Shown here: positions 16,829 to 46,782 of the stretch, one piece after another | Numbering within the stretch: the stretch's first letter is position 1 | Layout of the letters: each line of letters starts with the position of its first letter | Program-made: the position numbers and the translations under genes | NCBI RefSeq assembly: GCF_002795865.1 | Contig: NZ_CP024920.1 | Coordinates: 1,213,001 to 1,277,000, forward strand | Reading direction: 5' to 3' | DNA from: Qipengyuania seohaensis | GTDB lineage: Bacteria; Pseudomonadota; Alphaproteobacteria; Sphingomonadales; Sphingomonadaceae | DNA: 64,000 nt | The notes under the pieces: generated by a model | Database searches by the model: none | Told to the model about the DNA's origin: nothing | Seen by the model: only the letters and a program-made list of their open reading frames with translations

Positions 16829-18061
16829 TCACCCATGCGCGGCGATGAATTCCTCGACCACTGGCGCGATCTTGCCGCGCCATTTGCTGCCGTTGAAGAT
16901 GCCGTAATGGCCCGCGCCTTCGGCCATGTAGTAGCGCTTTTTCGAGGCATCGAGATTGGGCGTCAGCTCCAGCGCGGCGCGGGTCTGGCCGAGGCCCGAG
17001 ATATCGTCGCGCTCGCCCTCGATGGCGAGGAGAGCGGTCCCGGTGATATCGCCGAGGTCGATACGCTTGCCGCGGTGCATGAAGGTGCCGTTCGGGATGG
17101 CGTGCGTCTGGAAGACCTCTTCCACCGTCTGGAGATAGAACTCGGCGGTCATGTCGCACACGCTGCGATATTCGTCGTAGAAATCCTTGGTCGCCTGCGC
17201 GCTGGCGTCATCGCCAACGGTGAGGTGTTTGAACATCTCGTAGTGGCTCATCATGTGATTGCCGAGGTTCATGCTCATGAAGCCGGCGAGCTGCATGAAG
17301 CCGGGATATACGCGCCGGCCGCCGCCGCGATACTGCATCGGGACGGTTGCGATGACATTGTGCTGGAACCACTCGATCGGGCGTTCCATCGCGAGGTCGT
17401 TTACGCTGGTCGGCGAACAGCGCGTGTCGATCGGACCGCCCATCATGGTTAGCGTTTTCGGAACGCATTCGTGTCCATCGCGATTCATGATCGCGGTGGC
17501 CGCAAAGACCGGCACGGACGGCTGGCACACGGCCATGGCATGGGCGCCGGGACCGATGTATTCGAGGAACTCGATCACGTAGTCCATGTAATCGTCGAGG
17601 TCGAAATGACCTTCGTGCAAGGGCACGTTGCGTGCATCGGCCCAGTCGGTGACGAAGACGGTATAGTTTTCGAGCATCCGCTCGACCGTTCCGCGCAGCA
17701 GCGTGGCGTAGTGCCCGCTCATCGGGGCGACGACCAGGAGGCGCGGCGCATCTTCGGCAAGGCCTTCACGGCGGAAGCGCTTGAGGTCCCCGAACGGCTT
17801 GTTGACCACGGTCGACTCGACGACCGGCCAGTGCCTGCCGCCCGCCTCGACGCTTTCGATACCCCAGGCAGGCTTGCCATAGGTCGCGGTGGCATGGGCG
17901 AAGACTTCCAGCGCGCTGGCGGCCATCGGGCCCAACCCCATGTAACCGCCCATGTAATTCTGCGGCAGGGCGGGATTGGACAGCATTTCCGCCCCGATGG
18001 AGGCCCATGCGCTGGCGCTGGATAACCAGCTGCGCTGGAGTTCATAGGCGTGATAAAGCAT
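16829..18061 (-). CDS. phaZ: Intracellular polyhydroxyalkanoate depolymerase
   Basis: The 410-aa protein matches PhaZ1-type depolymerases that mobilise stored PHB granules. Instead of a serine lipase box it has the cysteine version, AVCQPSVPV, with the nucleophilic Cys near residue 179, as is usual in this family. The C-terminal AEGAGHYGIFNG holds the likely catalytic His, and GERDDISG is near the Asp. No signal peptide is present, which fits a cytoplasmic role. A PHA synthase is not in the window. The nucleotidyltransferase follows closely downstream. Confidence 0.92.
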   Translation of the reverse strand: MLYHAYELQRSWLSSASAWASIGAEMLSNPALPQNYMGGYMGLGPMAASALEVFAHATATYGKPAWGIESVEAGGRHWPVVESTVVNKPFGDLKRFRREGLAEDAPRLLVVAPMSGHYATLLRGTVERMLENYTVFVTDWADARNVPLHEGHFDLDDYMDYVIEFLEYIGPGAHAMAVCQPSVPVFAATAIMNRDGHECVPKTLTMMGGPIDTRCSPTSVNDLAMERPIEWFQHNVIATVPMQYRGGGRRVYPGFMQLAGFMSMNLGNHMMSHYEMFKHLTVGDDASAQATKDFYDEYRSVCDMTAEFYLQTVEEVFQTHAIPNGTFMHRGKRIDLGDITGTALLAIEGERDDISGLGQTRAALELTPNLDASKKRYYMAEGAGHYGIFNGSKWRGKIAPVVEEFIAAHG

Positions 18062-18226
18062 TCGCGTCCCCTGCTGCCCGCGCTGTTATGGTCTCGCTGC
18101 GGGCCCTTGTTTCAAACCGGCAGTCTGACGAGTGATTCGTCGTTGTGCAATGCACAAATGGGGTAAAAGTGCCCGAAACGCGCCTCCCCTGTGGATTTTG
18201 CCGCGCGCGCTGCCTAGGTGGAGCGA

Positions 18227-36927: not shown

Positions 36928-37985
36928 GGAAGCAGGTGCCCCGCACGATCCCGCTTCGTGGCAAGATAACGGGCGTTGTGGGGATTGTCCGGCAGGGCGT
37001 GCGGGACACGCTCGTCGATTTGTACGCCGTGCGCGGCCAGTGCGTCGACCTTGGCCGGATTGTTCGTCATCAGGCGGATACTGCGCACACCGAGGAGGTC
37101 GAGCATCCTTGCCGCAGTGGGAAAGTCACGTGCTTCGTCCGGCAGGCCCAGCCGCGTGTTCGCATCGACCGTGTCGAAACCCTGGTCCTGCAAGCGATAG
37201 GCACGCAGCTTGTTGATGAGGCCGATGCCGCGTCCCTCCTGCCGCATGTAGAGCAGCACACCCCAACCGCCCTCTTCGGCCTCATTCGCCATCGCATGGA
37301 GGGCCGCGTCGAGCTGTGGGCCACAATCGCATTTGAGGCTGCCGAGAACGTCGCCGGTAAGGCATTCGGAATGGAGGCGCACCAGCGGCGGCTTGTCCGA
37401 GCGTTCCTTGCCGATCACCAGCGCCACATGCTCGCGCGTATCGTCGGGGTGGCGGAAAGCCACGATCCGCGCATCGGGCGCTGCATCCACCGGCAGGGAG
37501 GCCCGCGATGCTATGCGCAAGGTGTCGGCTTGCGAAAAAGCATCCAAGTCCGACGCTTCGAGGTGCACAGCCTCCCCCGCACCTTCCGGAGCGACGAGAA
37601 ACGCGGGCAATATCCCGGCGATGCGCGCCAGTTCCAGGGCAGCTGCCGCCTGCCCTTCCCACTCCAGCGTCAGCGCCTTGAACGGACCCTTCATCGGCTT
37701 GGTCAAATCCAGCGCCGGATCGGCAATCGCCAAGGCGGCAGGCAGGTCGAATGTCTCCGCCCCGCGAAGCAGGACCGGCTGGCGCGGTGCCGCCGCTTCG
37801 CGCTGGTTGGCCAGTTTCAATGTGACCGCGCGGGTTGCCGAAATCAGCATTTCGCCTGCCGTCACTTCGGCGAACGCCGTCTCGACCGGTTGCAACAGCG
37901 GCGCACCGGCAATCGCCAGCGGCCAGCCGTGCCTCAGCGCATCGACGGCCTGCGCCGCCCGGCGTGAAGGCGATGCCTCGTTCAG
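36924..37985 (-). CDS. ribA: GTP cyclohydrolase II, apparently starting at CTG
   Basis: RibA opens the GTP ring in the first step of riboflavin synthesis. The catalytic part holds the zinc ligands in SECLTGDVLGSLKCDCGPQ and the YMRQEGRGIGL motif. About 180 residues precede it, a degenerate RibB-like extension known in some alphaproteobacterial RibA proteins. The conserved N-terminus (RAAQAVDALRHGWPLAI) lies upstream of the first ATG, GTG or TTG in frame (TTG at 37895). The best start is CTG at the complement of 37983-37985, overlapping the xth stop as CTGA, with CGGAG 8 bases upstream. This gives 353 aa. Confidence 0.88.
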   Translation of the reverse strand: MNEASPSRRAAQAVDALRHGWPLAIAGAPLLQPVETAFAEVTAGEMLISATRAVTLKLANQREAAAPRQPVLLRGAETFDLPAALAIADPALDLTKPMKGPFKALTLEWEGQAAAALELARIAGILPAFLVAPEGAGEAVHLEASDLDAFSQADTLRIASRASLPVDAAPDARIVAFRHPDDTREHVALVIGKERSDKPPLVRLHSECLTGDVLGSLKCDCGPQLDAALHAMANEAEEGGWGVLLYMRQEGRGIGLINKLRAYRLQDQGFDTVDANTRLGLPDEARDFPTAARMLDLLGVRSIRLMTNNPAKVDALAAHGVQIDERVPHALPDNPHNARYLATKRDRAGHLLP

Positions 37986-38779
37986 AGAGAAAACTCCGTC
38001 ACCAGCGGCACGTGGTCTGAAGGCTTTTCCCAGTCGCGGGCGTATTCATGGACCGAGTGGCCGGTCGCCTGTTCCGCGAGTTCGGGGCTTGCCCACATGT
38101 GATCGAGCCGGCGGCCTCGGTCGTTGGCCTTCCAGTCTTTCGCCCGGTAGCTCCACCAGCTGTAATAGCGTTCGGGCGAAGGGATGTGTTCGCGCCCGAT
38201 ATCGGCCCAGCCGTGCGCATCCATGAAGCGCTGCAGCGCGTCGACCTCGACCGGCGTGTGGCTGACGACCTTCAGCAATTGCTTGTGGTTCCACACGTCG
38301 CTTTCGAGCGGCGCGATATTGAAATCGCCCACGATAAGCGTGGGGCGATCGACCTTGTCCGCCCAGCGCGTCATCCGCTCGAGAAAATCGAGCTTCTGGC
38401 CGAATTTCACATTCTTCTCGCGGTCGGGCTCGTCGCCGCCAGCGGGGACATAGACGTTTTCTACGATCATGCCCTGGTGTGCCGGATCGGTCAGTTCCAC
38501 CCCGACGTGGCGCGCCTCGCCATTGTCCTGCCAGTCATGCTTCGAAAAATCACGGAAGGGAATTTTCCCGACCGTCGCCACGCCATGGTAGCCCTTCTGC
38601 CCATGGATGGCGAAATGCTCGTACCCGAGTTCGCGGAAGGCTTCGAAGGGGAACTGGTGTTCCTGGCACTTGATCTCCTGCAAGCACAGGATGTCGGGCC
38701 CCTGCTCCTCCAGGAAGCGGGCGACAATCGGCATACGCAGGCGGACGGAATTGATATTCCAGGATGCAACAGAAACCAT
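37982..38779 (-). CDS. xth: Exodeoxyribonuclease III (AP endonuclease)
   Basis: Xth cuts DNA at abasic sites and trims 3' ends in base-excision repair. The 265-aa protein has the motifs in order: ASWNINSVR, CLQEIKC with the catalytic Glu, YVPAGGDEPDR, VGDFNIAPLE with catalytic Asp/Asn, RLDHMWAS and SDHVPLV with the catalytic His. The ATG at 38779 matches the family start (MVSVASWNINS). It leads an operon with ribA and a GNAT gene; its stop overlaps the inferred CTG start of ribA. A small RNA gene ends 52 bp upstream. Confidence 0.95.
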   Translation of the reverse strand: MVSVASWNINSVRLRMPIVARFLEEQGPDILCLQEIKCQEHQFPFEAFRELGYEHFAIHGQKGYHGVATVGKIPFRDFSKHDWQDNGEARHVGVELTDPAHQGMIVENVYVPAGGDEPDREKNVKFGQKLDFLERMTRWADKVDRPTLIVGDFNIAPLESDVWNHKQLLKVVSHTPVEVDALQRFMDAHGWADIGREHIPSPERYYSWWSYRAKDWKANDRGRRLDHMWASPELAEQATGHSVHEYARDWEKPSDHVPLVTEFSL

Positions 38780-38830: not shown

Positions 38831-38869
38831 CAAAAAACCCTCGAGCCGGGGGCAAATGGCTCGAGGGTT
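38831..38869 (-). terminator. Strong terminator closing the candidate small RNA
   Basis: A perfect 12-bp stem (38836-38847 with 38858-38869) and a 10-base loop. On the minus strand it is followed by a run of six T. It lies downstream of the predicted small RNA and upstream of xth. Confidence 0.9.
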
Positions 38870-38954
38870 CCTTGTGAGCGTTCGTCACGCTTGGAACGAA
38901 GCGGTTTGAGGGGTGGCAATCAACAGGGGGGAAATTGCCGTCCGCCGCTTCGTA
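38831..38954 (-). ncRNA. Candidate structured small RNA between lolA and xth
   Basis: On the minus strand a promoter-like pair (38961-38989) predicts a start near 38954. From there the RNA can fold: ACGAAGCGG (38953-38945) pairs with CCGCTTCGT (38904-38896); inside it GGCAAT (38939-38934) pairs with ATTGCC (38920-38915) with a C-rich loop; then AGCGT/ACGCT forms a second hairpin (38891-38877); a strong terminator closes it. No start codon or convincing frame is present. The unpaired UUUCCCCCC and ACCCCUC stretches resemble anti-Shine-Dalgarno loops of alphaproteobacterial trans-acting small RNAs. Length is about 124 nt. Confidence 0.6.
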
Positions 38955-38960
38955 GACTTA

Positions 38961-38989
38961 TAAATAGGACCGATCGTCTTGCTGCTCAA
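38961..38989 (-). promoter_or_regulatory. Putative promoter of the candidate small RNA
   Basis: On the minus strand TTGAGC (38989-38984) is separated by 17 bases from TATTTA (38966-38961), which runs into TAAG. The -35 matches TTGACA at 4 of 6 positions; the -10 is weaker. The predicted start falls directly at the first base-paired position of the RNA. Confidence 0.5.
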
Positions 38990-39043
38990 TGAACATCGAA
39001 CCGCCGGAGGTCGTATAAGGCGAACGGTTCGTCGCCGGTCCGT

Positions 39044-39706
39044 TTATCCCGGACGACGGGACGTTTTGCGCGGGTCCTTGAAGGTGAACGCGCTGTCGGC
39101 AACCGACACGCCGTAGCGGTGGTTGCGCAGGCGAACAGTGGTGCGGTGATTCTGTGCATCGAGCGCGACCCAATGGGTGAGGCGCAGGCCGCCAGGGGCG
39201 CTGGCATCACGCGCGAAGATGAGGGTGATCGCGCCGAATTCGGGTCGCTTGGGATCGCGCACTTCGATGCTGACGACATCGCTGTGTCCGGTCGGAACCA
39301 GCTTGCCGTACCGCTTCACGTCACGGCTCGGGTCGAGCAGCGCGCCGAGAGGCGAATTCTTGATCGGCCAACGCTGGACCTGGCTCACCTCGTAATCGAC
39401 CATGTACATCGACTTGCCGTTCGAGACGACGAGCAGGGGAACGCCCTTTTCGTATTCGAAACGGATCTTGCCGGGTCGCTTCAGCGTCATGACGCCGGAG
39501 ACGGACTGGCCGTTGCGGTCGGTCTGGACGAAGTCGGCCTTCATGGTAGCGATACCGCGAAGGGCATCGACCGCACGGTCGAGATCGCCTGCGGCAGCCT
39601 CCACCGGGGCGGGGGCTGCCAGAAAGCTTGCCGGAATCGCAGTGGCCACCGCAAACGCGATGGCCGAGGCGAAGGGTCGATTCTTGAAAAGGGTCAAGGT
39701 GTTCAT
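39044..39706 (-). CDS. lolA: Outer-membrane lipoprotein carrier protein LolA
   Basis: LolA ferries lipoproteins through the periplasm from the LolCDE transporter to the outer membrane. The 220-aa precursor has a signal peptide (about residues 1-33) and then the LolA beta-barrel pattern: ATMKADFVQTDRNGQSVSG, LKRPGKIRFEYEKG, and GKSMYMVDYEVSQVQRWP. The start is the ATG at the complement of 39704-39706; a longer frame would spoil the signal peptide. The RNA gene follows on the same strand. Confidence 0.9.
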   Translation of the reverse strand: MNTLTLFKNRPFASAIAFAVATAIPASFLAAPAPVEAAAGDLDRAVDALRGIATMKADFVQTDRNGQSVSGVMTLKRPGKIRFEYEKGVPLLVVSNGKSMYMVDYEVSQVQRWPIKNSPLGALLDPSRDVKRYGKLVPTGHSDVVSIEVRDPKRPEFGAITLIFARDASAPGGLRLTHWVALDAQNHRTTVRLRNHRYGVSVADSAFTFKDPRKTSRRPG

Positions 39707-39783
39707 GCTCCACGATTTAGCGTCGGAGCATTGAACTGTCACTGAACTGCGTGCGTTCCCGCCGTTCAGCTTGCCGGATCGAA

Positions 39784-43078: not shown

Positions 43079-44605
43079 ATGAGCGATATTTTCCTAGGAT
43101 TGGGCGGCAATGGAGAGAACCAGTATCTCAGGCTGGCGCAGGCCAATCGCCACGGATTGATCGCCGGAGCCACCGGCACGGGCAAGACCGTCACTCTGCA
43201 GGGCCTTGCAGAAAGCTTCTCCGCTCGCGGCGTCCCCGTATTCGTGGCCGATGTCAAAGGCGACCTGTCCGGCATCTCCATGGCCGGTTCCCCCCAGTTC
43301 AAGCATGCGGTCAAGCTGGAAGGCCGCGCGAAGGAACTGGGCATGGACGACTATGCCTATGCCGACAATGCGGCGGTGTTCTGGGACCTCTATGGGGAAA
43401 AGGGTTTCCCGATCCGCACGACGATTTCGGAAATGGGTCCGCTGCTCCTGGCACGGCTGCTGGACCTCAACGACACCCAGGAAGGCGTGCTCAACATCGT
43501 CTTCCGCTATGCCGACGAGAACAATTTGCTGCTGCTCGACCTTGGCGACCTGCAGGCCATGCTGACCTTCGCCTATGAAAACGCCAAGGACCTGTCCGGC
43601 AAATACGGCAATGTCTCCAAGGCCAGCGTGGGGGCGATCCAGCGCCAGCTGCTCAGCTTCGAGAGCCAGGGAGCGGACGAATTCTTCGGCGAGCCTGCGC
43701 TGGAGATCGACGATTTCCTCGCCACCGACGAAAAGGGTCGTGGCGTGATCAACGTGCTAGCTGCCGACAAGCTGATGCGCAGTCCCAAACTCTACGCGAC
43801 CTTCCTGCTCTGGCTGCTGGCCGAACTGTTCGAAACGCTCCCCGAGGTCGGCGACCCGGACAAGCCGAAGCTGGTGTTCTTCTTCGACGAGGCACACCTC
43901 CTCTTCGACGATGCGCCCGAAGCACTGGAAGAAAAGGTCGAGCAGGTCGTACGCCTTATTCGGTCAAAGGGCGTGGGCGTCTATTTCGTCACCCAGAACC
44001 CGATCGACATTCCGGAGAAGATCGCGGGCCAGCTAGGCAACCGAGTCCAGCACGCGCTGCGCGCCTTCACTCCGCGCGACCAGCGCGCCATCAAGGCCGC
44101 CGCCGAGACATTCCGCATCAATCCCGATCTCGATGTCGAGGAAGCGATCACCGAACTGAAAGTGGGCGAGGCGCTGGTCTCCACGCTCGACGAGGACGGT
44201 GCGCCATCGGTCGTGCAGCGCACGCTGATCAAGCCGCCCCACTCGCGCCTCGGCCCGGTGACGGAAAAAGAGCGCAAGATCGTGAACTCTGTCAGCGATC
44301 TCGACGGGAAATACGATGAAGCGATCGACCGCGAAAGCGCGGAAGAAGTGCTAGCGGCAAAGACGCTCGACGCCGCCGAAACCGCCAAGGAGGTCGAGGA
44401 AAAGGGCGAGGAGGAAGTGCGCAAGCGCGAACGCAAGAGCCCATCCATGTGGAGCAAGGCTGGCAAGGCTGCCGCGACCGCTGCGGCAGGCTCGCTCTCG
44501 TCGGTGGCCGTTGCCGCAGTACTCGGCAAGAAATCGCGCGCCGATCCGGTACGCACGGGCCTCAATGCCTTCGTGCGCAATATCGTCGGCGGGTTGATGC
44601 GTTAG
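43079..44605 (+). CDS. HerA-like ATPase (DUF853 family)
   Basis: A 508-aa HerA/FtsK-type ATPase of the DUF853 group (E. coli YjgR type). Walker A is GATGTGKTV, Walker [15 protein letters not shown], and the arginine-finger-like region [20 protein letters not shown] follows. The C-terminal 120 residues are helical and highly charged and end in a glycine- and alanine-rich segment. A role in DNA handling is likely from the fold but is not shown for this family. It is monocistronic; its end shares a TTAG with the kinase gene. Confidence 0.87.
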
Positions 44606-46002
44606 ATCGGAAGGCGCAATTCGGCGCGCAGGCCGCCCTTCTGCCGGTTCTCCAGTACCAGCGAACCACCATGCTGCTCCGCAACGGCGCGCGTGATGGT
44701 CAGGCCGAGACCGGCGCCGCCCGTGGCGCGATTGCGGCTTGCCTCGCCGCGGGTGAAAGGTTCGAGCATTTCGGCGATGCGATCTTCGGGAATGCCGGGC
44801 CCGTCGTCTTCGACGCGGATCACCGCCTCGTCGCCTTCCCGAACCAACGCGACTTCTGCGGTTCCGCCATAACGTAGCGCATTGGAGATGAGGTTGCGCA
44901 CGCCTCGTTTCAGCCAGGTGAGGTGCACCGGCGCGGGCACCCGCTGGCCGTCGAGCAGCGCGACCGGCTGGCTCATGTCCTCGAATTCCTCGACCACCGA
45001 AACCAGCAGGGCGTAGAGGTCCGTCCGTTCGGCAGGGCGTTCGGCGCGGCCGATGCGCGCGAGCAGCAGGATCTCGTCGAGCGTGCGCGTGATCTCTTCG
45101 ATCGAATCCGCCATCTTGGCCCTCAGACCCTCATTCCCGATCGCTTCGATCCTTACTCGCAGCGCGGCCAGCGGCGTTTTCAGGTCGTGGCCGATGGCGC
45201 CCAGCATGACGTCCTTTTCATCCAGCATGGCAGCGATGCGCGCTTCCATCGCATTATGCGCCGCGATCAGGCTGCGAATATCGTCGGGGCCGCTCGCCTC
45301 GATCGGAGTGATGCTGCCCGGATTGGACGAAAACCGTTCCGTCTGATGCGTCAGTCTCGCCAAGGGCCGGGTGATCCGGCGCAGCAGGACGAACAGGACC
45401 GTCATGACCAGTATGAAGATCACCAGCGTTTGGGCCGCAGTAACCAGGAAAACCCTCCGGTCGTCGCGTGGAAACGGTACCCGGGCGACGTGCCATGCGC
45501 CGCCTTCCTCCCATTGGACGGCGGCGACGAAGACTTTCCTGAACCCTCGGACCATTCTGCGCGATGCCGGGTTCCAGTCGCGAACCCGCTGCATCACCAC
45601 GGGATCGTCGTCGGTGGAGCGAATGGTCGCAAGGACGGCATGCGGTTCGCGAACGAACCCGGTAAGACGCGCCGCAATGGCTGTCGCAAGCGCATCGTCC
45701 GACGTCTCGCCCGGCAAGAGGGGATAGGCTTCGGTCACCTCGCCCCGCATCCAGCGGCCACCCAGTTCACGCCGGTCTGCCCGGAAACGTCGGCGATCCC
45801 CTTCGAGCACCGCTTCGCCGCGAGCCTGGCGAAACACCGGCGCGCCCCACAAGGAAAGCTGGGCGGCGCTGATCAAAGCCTCCTCGCGCCGCTCTTCGGC
45901 AATACGATAGAGCAGTCCGGTCGTCACCAATTGCGCCAGCAGGAGCGCTCCGGCGACTGCCAGCAATGTCTGGCCCAGCAGGCTCTTGGGAAGGAACCGC
46001 AT
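44602..46002 (-). CDS. Sensor histidine kinase (EnvZ/RstB-like)
   Basis: A 466-aa kinase with two transmembrane helices (about residues 9-31 and 185-206) enclosing a periplasmic sensor region of about 150 residues, then a HAMP domain ([17 protein letters not shown]), the phosphorylated His in [14 protein letters not shown], the N box [12 protein letters not shown], and the ATP-binding DDGPGIPED and GGAGLGLTI. It senses a periplasmic or membrane signal of unknown kind. Its ATG overlaps the response-regulator stop (TGATG). The 3' end meets the HerA-like gene in a 4-base overlap. Confidence 0.92.
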
Positions 46003-46736
46003 CAGGACTTGTCCGCCGCCTTGCGTGTGACATCCGCGCCGAACCGGTAGCCACCGCCGCGGACCGTCTGGATGAAATGCGGATTGCGGCTGTCTGCCTC
46101 GATCTTGCGGCGCAGGCGGCTGACCTGGTTGTCCACCGCGCGGTCGAACAATTGCGCCTCGCGCCCCTGGACCATGTCCAGCAGCCGGTCACGGTCGAGC
46201 ACCTGTCGCGGGTGGTCGCAGAATGCGCGCAGCATGCGGAATTCCGCCGTCGAGATCGGTACAAGCGTACCTTCAGGATCGGTCAGCCGGCGCTTCAGCG
46301 GGTCGAGCGTCCAGCCGTCGAAAACATAAGCTAGATCGTCCGCAGGCTCCGCGCCGGTGCGGTCTGCCCGGCGAAGGACGGAGCGTATGCGCGCAACGAG
46401 TTCGCGCGGTTCGAAGGGCTTGGTGACATAATCGTCAGCCCCGATTTCGAGGCCGATAATCCGGTCCATCGCCTCGCCCCTGGCCGTCAGCAGGATGACG
46501 GGAAGCTGGCGGCTTTCGACAAGGTGGCGACAGAGGGAAAGCCCATCTTCGCCCGGCATCATGATATCGAGCAGGACGAGGTCGGGCCGATCGGTCTCGA
46601 GCCGCGAACGCGCCTGCGCCGCGCTCTCGGCCTCGGTAACGACGAACCCCTGGCCGGAAAGATATTCCGCCAGGGGTTCGCGTAGGCTGGCTTCATCGTC
46701 GACCAGCAGCAGGGTGATGGGCGCAGCATCGTTCAT
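46002..46736 (-). CDS. OmpR/PhoB-family response regulator
   Basis: A 244-aa regulator. The receiver domain has the acidic pocket LLLVDDE, the phosphorylated Asp in LVLLDIMMPGEDG (about residue 50), and the switch Thr and Lys in LLTARG and DDYVTKPF. The C-terminal winged helix shows ISTAEFRMLRAF, VDNQVSRLRRKIE and IQTVRGGGYRF. It pairs with the kinase encoded downstream, with which it overlaps, and follows an EF-hand gene by 46 bp. A direct repeat like the E. coli RstA box upstream of the EF-hand gene suggests it regulates its own operon. Confidence 0.93.
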   Translation of the reverse strand: MNDAAPITLLLVDDEASLREPLAEYLSGQGFVVTEAESAAQARSRLETDRPDLVLLDIMMPGEDGLSLCRHLVESRQLPVILLTARGEAMDRIIGLEIGADDYVTKPFEPRELVARIRSVLRRADRTGAEPADDLAYVFDGWTLDPLKRRLTDPEGTLVPISTAEFRMLRAFCDHPRQVLDRDRLLDMVQGREAQLFDRAVDNQVSRLRRKIEADSRNPHFIQTVRGGGYRFGADVTRKAADKS

Positions 46737-46782
46737 GCGTGACCTATGCACTCGCTTGGCGGTGAACGAAACAGAAAGCCGG

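Follow-up and report, generated by a model that had tools for sequence, protein, structure and literature searches.

The gap between lolA and xth very probably harbours a stand-alone small RNA gene, as judged from the 64-kb window (the whole stretch of DNA analysed here, to which positions refer unless stated otherwise) and from its counterparts in related genomes. We propose that this element has a promoter of its own and likely gives rise to a trans-acting small RNA of ~124 nt. The C-rich loop of this RNA would base-pair to ribosome-binding sites rich in G, foremost that of the PHB depolymerase gene phaZ, and so block translation. At phaZ, the loop CCCCUGUUG would cover CAGCAGGGG and slow the use of stored polyhydroxybutyrate, and a second C-run, in the terminator loop, may act as a further seed. 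A CenR-type response regulator from the OmpR family would bind a box upstream of the RNA, the level of which would then rise when the envelope needs attention. Taken jointly, transcription from an own promoter as a ~124-nt trans-acting RNA and the blocking of G-rich ribosome sites by its C-rich loop, phaZ first, make up a reading that we consider somewhat better than an even chance, a rating given because its core can stand without the regulator.

A wider and distinctly more tentative suggestion is that the RNA ties envelope homeostasis to carbon storage throughout the family, with an OmpR/CenR regulon acting through it to lock the PHB store at phaZ. If this link were true, envelope stress would halt the use of stored polymer. 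Given its presence in 161/163 family genomes (by the misses listed) and a promoter-like box that, within one genus, also precedes genes for lipoprotein export and periplasmic folding and genes of Tol-Pal type, the RNA would be a core regulator of the group. Sphingomonads are used for converting lignin and pollutants, and a phaZ link, if right, would provide a direct handle on bioplastic storage.

Structure and conservation of the element

The predicted RNA (38954-38831, minus strand, as are all window features described below), supported by its fold and by conservation in genus and family, begins with a 9-bp outer stem (P1, 38953-38945/38904-38896), which is followed by an inner hairpin (P2, 38915..38939) with the loop UCCCCCCUGUU, a small hairpin (P3, 38877..38891, AGCGUGACGAACGCU, i.e. 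GCGU-GACGA-ACGC) and a terminator (P4, 38836..38869) with a 12-bp stem and the loop AUUUGCCCCC, closed by six T that can be read in the sequence (38832..38837). The preliminary description, made from the letters of the window, had proposed the same succession of parts, and each of them was recovered: the 9-bp stem, with compensatory (both-sided) changes at 6/8 aligned pairs; the inner hairpin, with six Watson-Crick pairs and one U-G around the C-rich loop and both-sided changes in 3/4 aligned pairs; the second hairpin, as GCGU/ACGC; and the perfect 12-bp terminator stem with its six T. A consensus scan for promoters and terminators, which requires the -10 element to end in T and the terminator loop to be <=8, lists neither the promoter nor the terminator of the RNA. 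The minimum free energy of the RNA is -58.0 kcal/mol, as against -31.5 (sd 2.96) in 200 dinucleotide shuffles (z -8.95), none of which folded as well.

The alignment of 19 sequences from the genus displays a clear division between loops and stems. The motif UUCCCCCCUGUUG in the loop of P2 (38921..38933), which is the predicted seed, is invariant across the 19 genus members, as are GCGUGACGAACGC, the GCGTGACGAACGC of P3 and the run of C in the terminator loop; the stems, that of the terminator included, change in step. Of the two C-rich segments singled out earlier as unpaired, UUUCCCCCC is near-invariant and extends to UUCCCCCCUGUUG, but ACCCCUC is not conserved; the conserved third C-run, in the terminator loop, was absent from that account. 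The tetranucleotide CCCC lies in a hairpin loop of the minimum free energy structure in 150/158 unique members, and by a stricter count, which asks that all seven bases of CCCCTGT be unpaired, in 71/158. Over a wider set, CCCCTGT occurs in 89/89 and GCGTGACGA in 79/89 of those members that were retrieved through DNA similarity or the covariance model R1 (89 of 163 loci), rather than by motif, although R1 was itself built from motif-bearing members. For loci L090-L169 (at least 80), which were fetched by a pattern containing both loop motifs, such counts would be circular.

Both-sided changes were found in 13/31 pairs of the RNAalifold structure of the genus alignment (58 cells), a level reached by 0/500 shuffles, in a test for which, as in the second one below, the structure was derived from the same alignment as was counted and the rows are related. 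Similarly, the covariation score was 0.316 as against 0.174 in shuffled alignments (0/500 as high), and sliding of the pairing partners lowered the paired share from 98% to 36-58%. Further pair types did not exceed the shuffles in the genus alignment (300/500). The second alignment, of 34 Sphingomonas-type sequences, gave both-sided changes in 12/21 pairs (50 cells), with 0/500 shuffles as high in every measure. Since the P3 hairpin hardly varies, covariation says nothing about it.

A lack of any reading frame, also claimed earlier, holds in effect but not to the letter: mechanical open reading frames do cross the stretch, and a closed frame of >=15 codons is present in 60/158 unique members. 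The distance from one invariant block to the other, however, falls in all three frames (57, 56 and 38 of 151), and the element is therefore not coding. By sequence evidence, then, the element is conserved, covarying and noncoding, with stems that covary and loops that do not change. The earlier view of an independent noncoding element, with its C-rich loop, is upheld, with conservation across the family, and what sequence evidence alone describes, a stand-alone noncoding gene with a promoter and an intrinsic terminator, is the make-up expected of a trans-acting small RNA.

Predicted targets

The best predicted target is phaZ (16829..18061; PF06850, E 2.7e-89), which the preliminary description had suggested. 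Just upstream of its start, over the likely ribosome-binding site, the sequence CAGCAGGGG (18068..18076) is predicted to form nine pairs, one of them G-U, with the loop 5'-CCCCUGUUG-3'. The suggestion came through a comparative test: CAGGGG precedes phaZ in 14/16 syntenic relatives from the genus, i.e. in 15/17 members including the window, and is found at 0/303 other sites in the same genomes (26 conserved window genes with 320 sites in the window and its relatives). Among these 26 genes phaZ has the strongest mean duplex, at -18.7, whereas the 26 together average -9.8 (sd 2.7). The best gene for the P3 segment reaches 0.64, and that for the terminator-loop segment 0.40, of orthologues, as against 0.94 for phaZ. 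The hexamer also stands before phaZ in a Novosphingobium bin, Q. citrea and Sphingomonas parapaucimobilis. When the letters of the seed were shuffled, 3.7% of 3000 shuffles gave some gene with as high a conserved match (p ~0.04), and because composition-matched seeds reach the level of phaZ this often, the evidence for this target is moderate.

The RNA likely acts in trans, through its C-rich loop, at ribosome-binding sites; that phaZ is among its direct targets we would put at an even chance. Two of the 17 genus members are without CAGGGG, and the hexamer could be kept before phaZ merely as a ribosome-binding site. The latter would allow for a trans-acting RNA with a C-rich loop whose true targets lie elsewhere, an alternative that we judge rather improbable. 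It draws on the seed shuffles just mentioned and on the genome from which the window comes, where CAGGGG occurs at 5/342 genes, phaZ included, and phaZ ranks 5th of the 342 by duplex energy (genes and starts called by a codon-usage script), or 2nd of 51 window reading frames by another gene caller. In addition, the same genome has a complement of greater length, AACAGGGGGG, before a gene without a name, and in Niveispirillum, which lies beyond the known range of the RNA, AAGGGGA is found at the corresponding position. Against this alternative stands the absence of CAGGGG from the 303 other ribosome sites of the same genomes, and from all six phaZ read outside Sphingomonadales (rhizobial and azospirillar, picked from 105 plasmid records).

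With phaZ as the preferred target, further ones are expected. The best duplex among the 342 genes belongs to a small gene without Pfam match (L441 4983-5519, minus strand, at ~1.505 Mb of the window's own genome), which is preceded by GTAACAGGGGGG, a perfect complement to ten bases of the loop. TonB-dependent receptors were considered as a target class and dismissed, their 26 starts being indistinct from 51 window reading frames in duplex with the loop (p 0.28) or the terminator loop (p 0.73). One such receptor (L278, 813490-813504 of the same genome) carries CAGGGGGGA directly before its start codon; this site, the sole strong case, is not kept in the closest orthologue (L301, G001). A search of 13 genomes for CAGGGGGGA-N2-9-ATG gave 14 matches, compared with 3 for controls, and no gene recurred. 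Likewise, the ten-base complement CAACAGGGGG has 4 matches in the window's own genome and 4 for its reversed control; one of the former is the opposite strand of the RNA itself and three lie inside open reading frames, none at a listed start.

Promoter box, flanking genes and a putative envelope regulon

A promoter TTGAGC-N17-TATTTA had been proposed for the RNA (38989-38984 and 38966-38961). Both hexamers are present, and the TA of the -10 element TATTTA (38961..38966) is conserved, but TTGAGC is not; this -35 hexamer overlaps a box that, in a looser form, is conserved, TTCAT-N6-GMMAG, which reads TTCAT-N6-GCAAG in the window (38978..38993, about -39 to -24). With a regular expression composed after inspection of the alignment, TTCA-N5-8-G(A/C)(A/C)A(G/A/T) was found upstream of the RNA in 137/155 unique regions as against 1/155 shuffled ones. 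Where the fuller pattern is matched, six bases separate TTCAT from GMMA in 134/134 cases, and the -10 element follows after ten more bases in 126/134. The full box pattern occurs once in the 64-kb window, where 0.02 occurrences are expected.

The fixed arrangement of box and -10 element bears on the origin of the predicted RNA. In the window, lolA (39044..39742; PF03548) lies upstream and xth, for exodeoxyribonuclease III (37982..38779; TIGR00195 and TIGR00633, both above cut-off), downstream, on the same strand as the RNA. Same-strand lolA is found within 400 nt upstream in 146/155 loci with >=700 nt to inspect, as would be anticipated if the RNA were a processed 3' untranslated region released from lolA mRNA. 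This origin is nevertheless highly improbable, for a conserved promoter-like box and -10 element with fixed spacing precede the RNA, and the RNA remains in L051, L054 and L070, where the nearest lolA match is 841, 410 and 875 nt away. Equally so is a role in cis for the element, as leader or attenuator of xth, in which the terminator would switch read-through into this DNA-repair gene: xth follows within 400 nt in many relatives as in the window, yet only in 109/161 loci (median 81 nt), so that 52 keep the RNA without xth within that distance, and the invariant parts of the RNA are loops. In Qipengyuania citrea, moreover, the order is rpmG, lolA, a gap with a match to the 3' part of the RNA, an opposite-strand alkaline phosphatase gene and xth; the gene table for this species holds no RNA genes, and the empty gap in it is uninformative. 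A role as xth leader is thus unlikely, and the RNA, which we continue to read as a probable independent transcription unit, is tied more closely to lolA than to xth.

The box is not confined to the RNA. Its strict form has 4 matches in the window's own genome (1 for the reversed control) and 48 in 13 genomes of the genus (4 for the reversed pattern). Among 32 of these genus loci that were read, 8 precede a signal-peptide cyclophilin gene, 7 a cpoB/ybgF-like gene and 6 a lolC/E gene, and 6 are the RNA itself; the others comprise one PagL-family gene, one BlaI-type regulator and three without family, one of which (L238) has a cyclophilin-type box. Families were assigned by HMM for one member each, to which the rest were joined by BLAST clustering; lolC/E scored above the NCBIfam cut-off, the cpoB-like protein below it, and cyclophilin and PagL above their Pfam cut-offs. 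When ten genomes from other genera were scanned, the box had 18 matches compared with 3 for controls, 7 of them being the RNA, 5 a shared box type and the others unassigned; the open reading frames behind the box in these genomes were without BLAST match to the cpoB-like, cyclophilin and lolC/E proteins, with xth, the neighbour of the RNA, alone matched, and the regulon beyond the RNA is therefore seen in one genus only. The shared type is a near-identical box, TTCATGG...GCCAGCCATG, in five other genera (L345, L346, L356, L359 and L360); the gene behind it was read in all but L356, and in these four it encodes a secreted protein that bears a SxxYxFLxAVR-like motif.

Since its two half-sites, 11 bp apart, lie directly upstream of the -10 element, the box can be likened to the sites of OmpR-family activators. 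Its recurrence before cpoB-like, cyclophilin and lolC/E genes likely reflects an envelope regulon of the OmpR family, and whether a regulator of OmpR/CenR type drives the RNA appears evenly balanced from the sequences. In Rhodobacter sphaeroides, the CenKR regulon is similar in its OmpR-family direct repeat with an 11-bp period and in its Tol-Pal and other envelope genes, but as described there CenR recognises TGA-N8-TGA, whereas the box, read on the reverse strand, is TGN or TTN-N8-TGA, with a degenerate second half-site that is not TGA (a putative site), and CenR acts at tolQRAB rather than at pal-cpoB (PMC9275681).

A two-component pair resembling OmpR/EnvZ (44602-46751 of the window, best NCBIfam models below cut-off) is located ~6 kb from the RNA. 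This pair may be the regulator that acts on the TTCAT-N6-GMMAG box. Two other regulators were discarded. The motif of sigma-EcfG is GGAAC-N15-18-GTT, and in this form it was found in 0/161 upstream regions. The motifs published for ChvI, TTGC-N3-GCAA and GCC-N8-GCC (PMC9731502), misfit the box by eye.

Distribution and relation to known small RNAs

A DNA search of 31 genomes found the RNA in 18/18 other members of the genus and in 0/12 genomes from the order's other families. With the covariance model R1, built from members with the loop motif, it was recovered from 142/149 family genomes and 94/96 genera, with one match in 141 genomes and two in one, and from 160/246 genomes of the order. A second model, R2, built from the Sphingomonas group, matched 166/246 order genomes, namely five in the sister families f2 and f3, counted by score with their sequences unread, and hence 161/163 in the family (166 minus these five), the misses listed being G098 and G283. 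Carriers among the matches listed include Erythrobacter, Novosphingobium, Sphingomonas, Sphingopyxis, Blastomonas, Tsuneonella and Polymorphobacter. In a sample of 385 genomes from the class, the five good scores all fell within the family. A wider distribution was rejected: nine weak matches in other families (22-32 bits) were terminator-like in the seven that were readable (L370 and L371 being unread), and 0/7 of these contained CCCCTGT or GCGTGACG. Matches to R1 on the reverse strand score 22-30 bits, and because terminators by themselves reach such values, an R1 match below ~35 bits was accepted only with other evidence. This applied to the two weakest, L050 and L051 (32.1 and 32.7 bits), which were retained for the loop that both carry. 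Of the 80 listed loci fetched by pattern, 74 match the model, and the remaining six come from Streptomyces, a Clostridia bin, Gallimonas, Afipia and two Sphingomonas. The 163 loci hold a few genomes twice and yield 158 unique RNA sequences.

In Rfam (release 15) no family reaches its gathering score on the RNA. A kinship with the alpha-r8/alpha-r14 RNAs, which had been guessed earlier, found no backing: the models of these two families match neither the window (E up to 10) nor the loci of 18 members, the window's own included (E up to 0.5). The four weak matches in the window at E up to 10 belong to other families and lie mostly on the terminator (best RybB, E 0.062), and the 18 loci, at E up to 0.5, were matched by microRNA models alone, on a hairpin of L006 that is unrelated to the RNA. 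This long hairpin (L006 1362-1463), near the RNA, was matched below gathering and apparently by virtue of its stem alone.

According to the account of alphaR8 in PMC12559287, its members (MmgR, SisA-D) share with the RNA a C-rich core of ten bases and an intrinsic terminator; the core, demonstrated for SisA to pair upstream of start codons, and the seed of the RNA (UUUCCUCCCU and UUUCCCCCCU, respectively) are identical at 9/10 positions, and the member MmgR affects PHB accumulation. The exact core UUUCCUCCCU is absent from the 64-kb window. As described in the same source, the alphaR8 core is single-stranded and follows a weak hairpin, whereas here it forms a hairpin loop inside a longer stem; the usual locus is beside a gene for N-formylglutamate amidohydrolase, here it is beside lolA; and the invariant P3 and the C-run of the terminator loop are additions in the RNA with respect to alphaR8 (PMC12559287).

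GsrN of Caulobacter, a stress-linked alphaproteobacterial RNA, likewise has a 5' C-rich loop, which pairs with G-tracts such as that in the katG leader; it is described as activated by sigma-T/EcfG and as raising katG, whereas the EcfG motif, in the form given above, occurs in 0/161 regions here, and Erythrobacter litoralis is reported to have no apparent gsrN-like gene (PMC5869019). PmaR of Agrobacterium shares the accessible C-rich loop and has targets in peptidoglycan synthesis and cell division, several of them reported as positively regulated, but differs in its spoon-like single structure and in its reported restriction to Agrobacterium and one Rhizobium strain (PMC6234868). Compared by description only, SuhB of Sphingopyxis granuli is a trans-acting RNA of a sphingomonad that represses translation and is tied to PHB status, with 61 nt as against ~124 nt here; Sphingopyxis also carries the present element (PMC6563040). 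By analogy, the RNA would work like alphaR8, GsrN and PmaR, through C-rich seeds, while failing those defining features of alphaR8 and GsrN that were tested; no Rfam family (release 15) corresponds to it, but its kind, the small RNAs with C-rich seeds, is a known one.

In the open-access literature (subscription papers and supplementary tables being outside the scope) we found no paper on this RNA, and few characterised RNAs from sphingomonads. The Zymomonas small RNA Zms16 measures 125 nt by its listed ends (PMC6970203), and start-site datasets exist for Novosphingobium (PMC7471390, GSE150944) and Zymomonas (PMC7566282). Finally, in L051 (G139), a locus of 43.5% GC, the RNA stands out as a GC-rich island amid a very AT-rich intergenic stretch, and TTCAT-N6-GACAG is still found upstream of it.
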